Positions 376-20,300 of a DNA stretch of 51,090 nucleotides are shown piece after piece. The notes beneath the pieces are model-generated. The model did not search any database. It was not told where the DNA came from and saw only the letters and a program-made list of their open reading frames with translations. The position numbers and the translations under genes were made by a program. Within the stretch, counting starts at the first letter, position 1. Each line of letters starts with the position of its first letter. This DNA comes from a virus: positions 1 through 51,090 of the IMG/VR virus record IMGVR_UViG_3300034104_005609. The stretch is one strand, 5' to 3'.

Positions 376-612
376 GTGGAATAAATCACTTCTAATAGTT
401 ACATTTAATTTAAGAGATGGAAATGGGTGGGTAGTACCCCCCACTCTCCTATGGAGAGCATCAATGGGCTATGGAAAAATAACACTGCTAGCCATTCCAT
501 TCTTTCAACTACTATTTGTAACTTCAAACTGAGGAGTGGTTAAAATTAACTTTATTCTTTGTTTTATAGTGGTTACTACAATCATTGTAATAATAACAAA
601 AGGAGCTTTTAA
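376..612 (+). other. Intergenic gap with two hairpins and a 13-bp palindrome
   Basis: No convincing gene is seen in these 237 bases. Two adjacent inverted repeats lie at about 424-443 (TGGGTGGG, loop TAGTA, CCCCCCA) and 444-458 (CTCTCC, loop TAT, GGAGAG). Neither is followed by a T run, so they do not look like ordinary terminators. A perfect palindrome, TACAAT-C-ATTGTA, sits at 577-589, just upstream of the ribosome binding site of the HPr-like gene. It could be an operator or an RNA hairpin. A reading frame crossing 284-532 overlaps the glycosyltransferase and is not supported. Confidence 0.5.
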
Positions 613-843
613 GTGAAACCATTAGTCACAGAGATAGCTTTAATAGCTGGCAAGTATCGTTCAGCCATAGTTCTAGAAACTGCAACAGGTATGCTTGATG
701 CAAAGTCTATAATGGGAGTATTCACCTCCTTTACAGATACACGACCCAATGTTATTCACATTCAGGGTGAAGATGCCGAAGAGGCTAGAGCCGAACTAGA
801 GCGATTGTTTAAGCAATTAAACGTCGAAATGCAATTCAAATAA
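613..843 (+). CDS. HPr-like protein lacking the phosphorylatable histidine
   Basis: HPr is the small phosphocarrier of the PTS sugar uptake system. In Gram-positives, HPr phosphorylated at Ser46 is also the co-repressor of CcpA. This 76-residue protein matches HPr from just after the active-site loop: the AKSIMGV motif (Ser32 here) corresponds to the regulatory Ser46 region, and the GEDAEEA...LE tail matches the last helix. The HARP segment with the catalytic His15 is absent, because the GTG start falls where it would be and a TAA (610-612) lies directly in frame upstream. An AAAGGAG site precedes the GTG. It cannot be a normal phosphocarrier. A decoy for HPr kinase, CcpA or another HPr partner is an inference. 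Confidence 0.75.
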   Translation: MKPLVTEIALIAGKYRSAIVLETATGMLDAKSIMGVFTSFTDTRPNVIHIQGEDAEEARAELERLFKQLNVEMQFK

Positions 844-847
844 GCCC

Positions 848-876
848 TTGATAACTTGTGATAATTATGATATAAT
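848..876 (+). promoter_or_regulatory. Sigma-A type promoter, TTGATA-N17-TATAAT
   Basis: The -35 box is at 848-853 and the -10 box at 871-876, with exactly 17 bases between and a TGA extended -10. It lies 33 bases before the start codon at 910. Confidence 0.85.
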
Positions 877-12670: not shown

Positions 12671-13105
12671 GTGTCAAAAACAATTGTTTTAGTTACTGGT
12701 GGATTTGATCCATTACACTCTGGTCATATAGCCTATTTTAATTCAGCCAAGAGACTAGGAGACTTACTCGTAGTTGGGCTTAATAGTGATGAATGGCTAA
12801 CTAGAAAAAAGGGTAAATCATTTTTATCTTTTTATGAGCGAAATGCAATAATATCTAATCTAAAAATGGTAGATTTGACTATTGGTTTTAATGACGATGA
12901 TGGATCTGCTTGTGAAGCTATACGAGAAACTAGAAATATATTTAGACAAGATAAAATTATTTTTGCTAATGGTGGAGATAGAACTGCGAACAATATTCCC
13001 GAGATGTCTGTCATAGATGAAAGTTTAATATTTGAATTTGGTGTTGGTGGCGAAGATAAAAAGAATAGTTCAAGTTGGATTTTGAAAGAGTGGAGTACTA
13101 GATGA
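12671..13105 (+). CDS. Nucleotidyltransferase of the TagD/RfaE-C type
   Basis: These enzymes join CTP or ATP to a phosphorylated alcohol or sugar (for example glycerol-3-phosphate or heptose-1-phosphate). The 144-residue protein has GGFDPLHSGH (HSGH at residues 16-19), LGDLLVVGLNSD, the KKGKSF phosphate loop and an SSSW segment replacing the ISTT-type motif near the end. The late GGDRTANNIPE and GVGGEDK segments fit the heptose-type branch better than classical TagD. The start is GTG at 12671 or 12662; the site is weak because the previous gene ends here. It opens the sugar cassette. Confidence 0.85.
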   Translation: MSKTIVLVTGGFDPLHSGHIAYFNSAKRLGDLLVVGLNSDEWLTRKKGKSFLSFYERNAIISNLKMVDLTIGFNDDDGSACEAIRETRNIFRQDKIIFANGGDRTANNIPEMSVIDESLIFEFGVGGEDKKNSSSWILKEWSTR

Positions 13106-13797
13106 TAAATATAGATAGAGTTTATATTATATGTTCTGAAAAATATGAAGCTGATAAGTATGAAAAATGGCAACAATGGCTAGACAGTAATAATATTAAT
13201 GGCGAGATATCATTCTATAAATGGGGTACAGAGTTAACACAAGAAGAGGTTGATTCTTATGTACTCAGAGATGGGACATTGGAAAAATATTACCCTTGGA
13301 GAACTGGATATCCTATTAGAAATTCAGAAGCTTCAATAGCTATTAATTTTATTAAAATATTTGAAGATGCCTATAAAAAAGGATATAATAGAATATTGAC
13401 ATTAGAAAGCGATGTTCTTCTACACCCAGACTTTATAAGTAAAGTTAACGAAATATTAAAGATGACTGAGCAAGTAGACTTAAATGTAATATCAATTGGT
13501 TGTGGAATGGGATATAGGATCAAGTCCGAAAGTGGAGAAAATATCATAGCTGGAGTTAATCAGTTTAGATGTGCCGATAGCTTAATTTTTACAAATACAG
13601 CAATAGATTATTTCTATAATAATCTAAAGCAAATCAGAGTGCCAGTTGACGAAGAGTTTACTAGAGCAGTTCAAGAAAATCATATCTCGGTATATTGGTT
13701 AGAGCCACCAATTGCAATTCAACAATCACAAATGGCTGGCAATTCTAGTCAAACACAAAATGGGAATTATAACTTAAGGATTCCATGGGAGATATAG
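13102..13797 (+). CDS. Glycosyltransferase, GT25-like
   Basis: A 231-residue protein with a GT-A pattern. After an N-terminal IDRVYIIC strand comes a segment SIAINFIKIFEDAYKKGYNRILTLESDV, which matches the GT25-type 'helix then L-E-(D/S)-D-(V)' nucleotide and metal site. The usual EDD is ESD here. A late VDEEFTRAV may help catalysis. The ATG overlaps the TGA of the nucleotidyltransferase gene. It should act in the cytoplasm, with unknown donor and acceptor. Confidence 0.68.
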   Translation: MINIDRVYIICSEKYEADKYEKWQQWLDSNNINGEISFYKWGTELTQEEVDSYVLRDGTLEKYYPWRTGYPIRNSEASIAINFIKIFEDAYKKGYNRILTLESDVLLHPDFISKVNEILKMTEQVDLNVISIGCGMGYRIKSESGENIIAGVNQFRCADSLIFTNTAIDYFYNNLKQIRVPVDEEFTRAVQENHISVYWLEPPIAIQQSQMAGNSSQTQNGNYNLRIPWEI

Positions 13798-19286: not shown

Positions 19287-20300
19287 ATGAAGAAGGCCCT
19301 AATTACTGGAATAACTGGACAAGATGGTTCTTATCTTGCTGAGCTTCTTTTAGAAAAAGGATATGAAGTTCATGGTATCATTAGAAGATCATCTTCTATA
19401 AATACCAAAAGAATTGACCATTTATATAATAATTCAAACTTGAAACTTCACCATGGCGACTTAACAGACTTTAGTAGTCTGATAAAAACAATACAGGACA
19501 TTCAGCCTCAAGAAATATATAATCTTGGAGCTCAAAGTCATGTTAAAGTTTCTTTTGAAATACCAGAGTACACTGGACAGGTTGATGCGCTAGGACCTCT
19601 TAGAATATTAGAGGCTGTAAGAATTTTAGGACTTGAAAGTCAAGTTCGTATATACCAAGCATCAACGTCAGAACTATTTGGTTTAGTCCAAGAAACTCCA
19701 CAGCGTGAAACAACACCCTTCTATCCACGATCTCCTTATGGAGTTGCAAAAATCTATGGATATTGGATTACAAAAAACTATCGTGAGTCTTATGGAATGT
19801 ATGCATGTACAGGCATTCTTTTTAATCATGAGTCCCCTAGAAGAGGCGAAACATTTGTAACTAGAAAAATTACAATGGGATTAAAAGCAATAGCAGAAGG
19901 TAAACAAGAATGTTTATATTTGGGCAACCTTAATGCTCGACGTGACTGGGGCCATGCTAAAGACTTTGTGGAGGCAATGTGGCTAATGCTGCAGCAGCCA
20001 GAACCAGACGACTTTGTTATAGCCACAGGAGAACAGTACTCTGTAAAAGATTTTATAAATGAAGCAGCTCCTTTTTTTGGAATGAGCATTGAATGGCATG
20101 GTGAAGGCGTTGATGAAGCGGGAGTCGATACACTTACAGGTCGCACAGTAATAAAAGTAAGCTCTAAATATTTTAGACCTGCTGAAGTAGAGTCATTATT
20201 AGGAGATGCTAGTAAAGCTAAGAATATTTTAGGGTGGACTCCAAAACACACTTTTAAAGAATTAGTGAAGGATATGTGTGAAAATGAAGAAGGATTCTAA
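19287..20300 (+). CDS. gmd: GDP-mannose 4,6-dehydratase
   Basis: Gmd turns GDP-D-mannose into GDP-4-keto-6-deoxymannose, the first step to GDP-L-fucose. The 337-residue protein is full length. It has the NADP-binding [32 protein letters not shown], the catalytic [17 protein letters not shown] (Tyr and Lys), [16 protein letters not shown] and the [11 protein letters not shown] segment. A GAGGAGG site precedes the ATG. The fcl gene overlaps its end by 23 bases. A GDP-heptose dehydratase (DmhA-like) is a possible variant. Confidence 0.95.

Follow-up and report, generated by a model that had tools for sequence, protein, structure and literature searches.

A phage-encoded HPr-like protein without His15 groups with a beta1-less protein family of Paenibacillus and related chromosomes

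Results

An HPr-like gene at the left edge of a phage fragment

The window, by which we mean the whole 51,090-base IMG/VR virus record IMGVR_UViG_3300034104_005609, represents part of the genome of a large tailed phage. Close to its left end lies a gene for an HPr-like protein, next to a glycosyltransferase fragment and among phage genes. The following features define the locus.

545..616, + strand: possible small membrane-peptide ORF, INFILCFIVVTTIIVIITKGAFK, 23-24 aa (from the sequence)
598..605, + strand: Shine-Dalgarno-like AAAAGGAG, 7 nt 5' of the GTG (from the sequence)
610..612, + strand: in-frame TAA stop abutting the GTG (from the sequence)
613..843, + strand: CDS of the HPr-like protein, 76 aa, GTG start, stop codon included; the only PTS-HPr match in the window
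703..717, + strand: codons K31-S32-I33-M34-G35, corresponding to K45-S46-I47-M48-G49 of HPr, the HPr kinase site segment (from the sequence and structural alignment)
817..840, + strand: C-terminal tail LNVEMQFK, family-conserved, after the last helix, with a short strand predicted at residues 74-75 (from DSSP on the models and the family alignment)
848..876, + strand: sigma-70-type promoter-like site, TTGATA-17-TATAAT, 11/12, just 3' of the HPr-like gene (from the sequence)

The product of ORF 613-843 is MKPLVTEIALIAGKYRSAIVLETATGMLDAKSIMGVFTSFTDTRPNVIHIQGEDAEEARAELERLFKQLNVEMQFK, in which S32 is encoded by TCT (706-708). An earlier note on this DNA had reported an in-frame stop upstream of the start, and this is the TAA at 610-612; because it lies in frame directly 5' of the GTG, beta1 and His15 cannot come from an upstream extension. 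The putative membrane-peptide ORF has an uncertain and non-standard start (ATT at 545), which follows GAGGAG at 531-536. Its TGA shares bases with the GTG at which the HPr-like gene starts, and this suggests that the two are translationally coupled. We also considered a frameshift fusion of the small ORF with the HPr-like gene, and rejected it because a slip into the HPr-like frame runs into the TAA at 610-612. The promoter-like site beyond the gene probably serves the next genes (910-1197 onward).

The host of the phage is likely a member of the Bacillales, a Bacillus-type bacterium, as suggested by the window's ribonucleotide reductase, which is 75% identical to Bacillus phage counterparts. 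The DNA polymerase shows 45% identity to those of Enterococcus phages VRE9/EF1 (134-142 kb) and 42% to those of SPbeta-type Bacillus phages. Several neighbouring gene families are common to the window and Enterococcus phage VRE9_2, in which a PTS-HPr match is absent, and two sister contigs (L234 and L235), each with a structural protein 100% identical to the window's, end short of the HPr-like locus. The GC content of the HPr-like gene is 40%, second among the genes measured to that of a UvdE-type UV endonuclease gene at 1550-2560 (43%); with the window at 34%, these values suggest that the left edge may contain recent host-derived genes. Elsewhere, a GDP-mannose 4,6-dehydratase gene (19287-20300) and glycosyltransferase-like ORFs (1-375 and 13102-13797) probably provide glycan-modifying functions.

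The protein has an HPr fold that begins at helix 1

Against the Pfam PTS-HPr profile (PF00381), for which the curated cut-off is 23 bits, the HPr-like protein scores 28.2 bits over profile positions 20-80 of 81; against the stricter NCBIfam model TIGR01003 it scores 24.7 bits, under the cut-off of 47.9. Its top PDB sequence match is Bacillus subtilis Crh. An HPr model built here gave it 34.5 bits; the next best of 581 frames in the window reached 5.6, and the maximum among 20,000 shuffles of the sequence was 10.7. No meaningful family was assigned to it in PADLOC and PHROGs. It weakly resembles the C-terminal portion of DUF7174/phrog_4841 (E 0.013 and 0.09), a family of 150-170 aa and unknown function, which hints that this family may also end in an HPr-like domain.

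AlphaFold2, given an alignment of the window protein and 43 distant relatives, produced a model with a mean pLDDT of 81 and a pTM of 0.71. Its elements are a helix (2-13), two strands (18-22 and 27-29), a helix (33-39), a strand (47-51), a helix (55-68) and a short strand (74-75); a weak single-sequence prediction (pLDDT 65.5) has the same order of elements, again with the short strand at 74-75. The leading structural matches of the model in Foldseek and VIA are all HPr or Crh, and VIA superposes 73 of the 76 residues at 1.7 A (Z 11.6), placing model residues 1-73 on HPr residues 15-88. The model has the HPr fold (beta-alpha-beta-beta-alpha-beta-alpha), though without beta1. Structure prediction had been named beforehand as a test that could overturn the reading of this ORF as HPr-like, and it came out in favour. 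On sequence scores and modelling, ORF 613-843 is a genuine HPr-fold protein, and one without the catalytic histidine, as originally proposed.

The protein has lost more than that histidine. The earlier note had placed its start just after His15: His15 is indeed absent, but in the structural alignment Met1 falls on position 15 itself, and strand beta1, the active-site loop and Arg17 are gone as well; the phosphocarrier signature, His15 in a GxHARP loop, is absent. Position 17 is occupied by Pro3 in the structural register; the MAFFT alignment, in which the register at this position is off by one, likewise has no Arg there. Two further contact positions are changed, Met51 to Phe and Leu53 to Ser. 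Two retained elements that had been pointed out are confirmed. In the Ser46 region, K31-S32-I33-M34-G35 aligns with K45-S46-I47-M48-G49, so that Ser32 is the equivalent of Ser46; and the final helix is present at 55-68 of the AlphaFold2 model, followed by a strand-like tail foreign to canonical HPr. The protein therefore has the Crh-type combination of an absent His15 with a Ser46 kinase-site segment.

Arg17 of HPr contributes to the contacts with CcpA and with the kinase. The missing Arg17 and the altered Met51 and Leu53 positions point to a changed interaction face, so the partner may differ and its binding may be altered relative to HPr and Crh. With both His15 and Arg17 lost, a phosphocarrier role is, we take it, impossible.

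A chain that begins in the active-site loop and finishes in a strand could be a strict circular permutation of HPr, with beta1 moved to the C-terminus, and we considered this candidate. The last helix of HPr ends near the active site, so a C-terminal strand would run antiparallel to beta1; moreover, it comprises only two residues in the models. A true permutation is not supported.

A chromosomal family shares the same layout

When 398 Bacilli genomes were searched with the phage protein as query, relatives were found at E values from 5e-12 to 2e-9, with ordinary HPr matching at 1e-5 or worse. These chromosomal relatives, for example MSSNNAAVVEIAQTAGKFTSSIVLHSENKYIDVKSILGLFTTLISTHSYELHVHGPDAAEAKAAMSEVFAKHGLNVSIASE, come from genomes of 5.6-7.3 Mb; they start at helix 1 and are without His15 and Arg17, with the Ser46 segment present. 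A 73%-identical protein of Paenibacillus cellulosilyticus, WP_110042879.1, shows the group to be Paenibacillus-type. Copies of this beta1-less family occur in 40 of the 398 genomes (38 at E < 1e-37 and two divergent). A strand-like tail, [L/M]-x-[V/F]-x-[I/V/L], ends all members, including the two divergent chromosomal ones, and is lacking in canonical HPr; the Ser46 segment is retained in every member read, divergent ones included, and position 17 in the Paenibacillus family is Ala. All the features of the family, namely the lack of beta1 and His15, an N-terminal alpha1, Ser46 and the strand-like tail, are found in the phage protein. The description of the phage protein as a truncated form has to be abandoned: since its layout is common to a chromosomal family, it is an inherited design and not a phage truncation.

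The gene for WP_110042879.1 is flanked by an M29 aminopeptidase gene on one side and ylaN on the other; rpsD and a diguanylate cyclase gene are close by, and M29, GGDEF and rpsD neighbours are seen again at family loci in other genomes. The M29 neighbourhood, a property of family members that is no criterion of homology, is absent at the phage locus. Such a difference is to be expected of a mobile copy; the plasmid member of Priestia megaterium, WP_286128361.1, likewise lies elsewhere, adjoining a LacI-family regulator and carbon-catabolism genes.

The related genomes tested encode ordinary HPr as well, with scores above 80 bits that cover almost the full profile, and also HPr kinase (8 of 8), implying that the family adds to the PTS rather than replacing it. 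The family, WP_110042879.1 included, carries no annotation other than 'HPr family phosphocarrier protein', although it cannot be a phosphocarrier. In the open-access literature that we searched, no study of the Paenibacillus/Bacillus beta1-less family was found. A second His-less HPr-like family, MRVHQFTIQHTLDRAHLL...VDVKSLLGM (L226 and L227, about 1450-1760), is also present in Paenibacillus-type genomes.

Placement of the phage protein and search for other phage copies

Scored with HMMs built here, the phage protein reaches 56.0 bits for the beta1-less family, 34.5 for canonical HPr/Crh and 24.6 for a His-less set from Clostridia. In a tree that is coarse, at 73 proteins and 87 columns, it falls with the Paenibacillus-type His-less proteins in the starred clade (97/95), within which its exact sister is unsettled (57/90). 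It falls away from B. subtilis Crh in the same tree, which speaks against orthology with that protein. Judged by these placements, the phage protein is a diverged member of the beta1-less, His-less HPr-like family, a variant of the Crh kind.

Its identity to the Paenibacillus-type family (WP_110042879.1 and the related WP_286128361.1) is 33-41%. Common to both are the missing beta1, His15 and Arg17, the Ser46 segment and the strand-like C-terminal tail; the phage protein differs in being phage-encoded, in an N-terminus shorter by 3 residues, in its long branch, and in having LDAKSIMGVF where the family has IDVKSILGLF. B. subtilis Crh resembles it in the HPr fold, the lack of His15, the Ser46 segment and its position outside the PTS, but has beta1, a loop with Gln15, and Arg17, and sits among canonical HPr in the tree. 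Canonical HPr (ptsH) has the same fold from helix 1 on (Z 11.6), whereas its beta1, His15 and Arg17 are all present and it takes phosphate from Enzyme I to transfer it.

A direct homologue search with the 76-aa protein against phage records and IMG/VR gave no match. Family-profile scans, which were seeded by short peptide patterns and which distant copies can escape, found no second phage copy of the beta1-less lineage. Two candidates were discarded: that in L209 is an ordinary HPr where the contig ends, and that in L266 a Clostridia-type member. At L209 (1871-4222, the end of a viral contig of 4.4 kb), a portal-like ORF of 783 aa reads on, without a change of frame, into a complete canonical HPr domain (EIINRLGLHARAAAKLV...), representing either a fusion or a chimeric assembly. 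No phage Crh-like protein is described in the literature searched.

A separate His-less lineage in Clostridia and their phages

The Clostridia family of His-less HPr-like proteins ('SGRYVVDAKSIMGIFSLDLSKP') accounts for at least 565 confirmed stretches in one-species genomes, and coexists with canonical HPr in all 8 of the 8 genomes examined. IMG/VR contributes 25 loci with proteins of this type, which are also carried by Enterocloster phages such as CB457P2. Like the phage protein described here, they have no His15, possess the Ser46 segment and are found in large phages; unlike it, they keep a beta1-like strand, with no GxHARP loop, and form a separate clade (100/100). The invariance of KSIMG in the Clostridia and viral set is left out of the evidence, because these loci were fetched with that pattern.

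In phages, Clostridia-type genes directly adjoin ThyA (L010 4001-5086; L011 2108-3197; L015/L016, at L015 3980-5125), ThyX (L013 3367-4240; L266 3932-4548) or FolD (L019/L020, at L019 3154-4231), and one is close to dUTPase (L031 2984-4201). Adjacency to ThyA, ThyX or FolD, or a dUTPase nearby, characterises about 7 of about 21 distinct phage loci, not all of which are independent. Among the flanks of the 80 chromosomal loci, ThyA, ThyX and FolD were found in none, a striking contrast in raw counts.

Discussion

The reading that we favour, and hold to be about evenly poised between right and wrong, is that the phage protein is a PTS-inactive, Crh-like regulator that came from, or is shared with, the Paenibacillus/Bacillus chromosomal family, is read by HPr kinase, and targets CcpA or another LacI-type regulator; the kinase and partner steps are those that we infer. 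In a sugar-rich cell, the host HPr kinase would phosphorylate Ser32 (the equivalent of Ser46), and the phosphorylated protein would bind CcpA or a related LacI-type regulator. Once bound, it could act as an alternative co-repressor or as a competitor of HPr/Crh, so that host carbon control would shift during infection with sugar uptake untouched. In Crh, which also lacks His15, HPr kinase phosphorylates Ser46, and the protein binds CcpA where HPr does (PMC4591507). For Geobacillus it is reported that Crh, and not HPr, has the main part in the repression by ribose-related control, ribose repression (PMC13130090). The position of the Priestia family member, next to a LacI-family regulator and genes of carbon catabolism, also counts for a Crh-like role. 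Binding of HPr kinase or CcpA, which the earlier note had raised, is plausible by analogy, because HPr kinase is present in every related genome tested and His15-less Crh does precisely this (PMC4591507); the missing Arg17, on the other hand, argues for altered partner binding.

That missing residue leads to a different reading, in which the HPr fold has been kept for a target that is not CcpA, for instance a metabolic enzyme, and in phages perhaps tunes nucleotide or one-carbon metabolism. HPr relatives regulate other proteins elsewhere, as E. coli HPr does with glycogen phosphorylase. HPr-glycogen phosphorylase complex structures (9s8k and 9s8b) are among the fold matches of our model, and the altered helix-1 face suggests a different partner. 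The ThyA, ThyX, FolD and dUTPase neighbours of His-less genes in other phages, together with the lack of the first three at chromosomal loci, add to this case. However, the thymidylate link is that of the Clostridia lineage, and in the window ThyA is about 6 kb from the HPr-like gene; overall, we regard a target other than CcpA as rather unlikely. Also to be weighed is a dominant-negative decoy with no co-repressor role, which would occupy HPr kinase or take the swapped beta1 of host HPr or Crh on its beta4 edge. Crh dimerises by swapping strand beta1 (PMC3724859), exactly the strand that is absent here and whose loss exposes the beta4 edge. Nevertheless, the short C-terminal strand at 74-75 in both AlphaFold2 runs may cap that edge, the conservation of the tail in the chromosomal family implies that an open edge may not exist, and the identical layout of that family speaks against a pure phage decoy, which makes this explanation improbable. 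An ordinary HPr gene that is in decay or was mis-sequenced, with its 5' part lost, would account for the missing N-terminal strand and catalytic residue. This is very improbable indeed, and already contradicted: the frame is intact, with a good ribosome-binding site and an in-frame stop upstream, the nearest relatives share its layout, and the protein shows the conserved positions and the C-terminal tail that are specific to the family.

A broader proposal, distinctly doubtful as it stands, is that large Bacillota phages took up His-less HPr-like phospho-switches at least twice independently, once from the beta1-less and once from the Clostridia lineage. Such switches would tie the phage's nucleotide synthesis or its development to the sugar signal of the host HPr kinase. 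The beta1-less form would then be a structurally rearranged HPr, its C-terminal strand filling the place of beta1.

HPr kinase, HPr/Crh and CcpA are the master carbon switch of Bacillota. If the Crh-like regulator that we propose is real, the phage would possess a switch protein that the kinase can read and that is useless for sugar uptake, and so a neat way to reset host metabolism. The finding also points to a conserved HPr-like chromosomal family of Paenibacillus and its relatives that is misannotated as a phosphocarrier.
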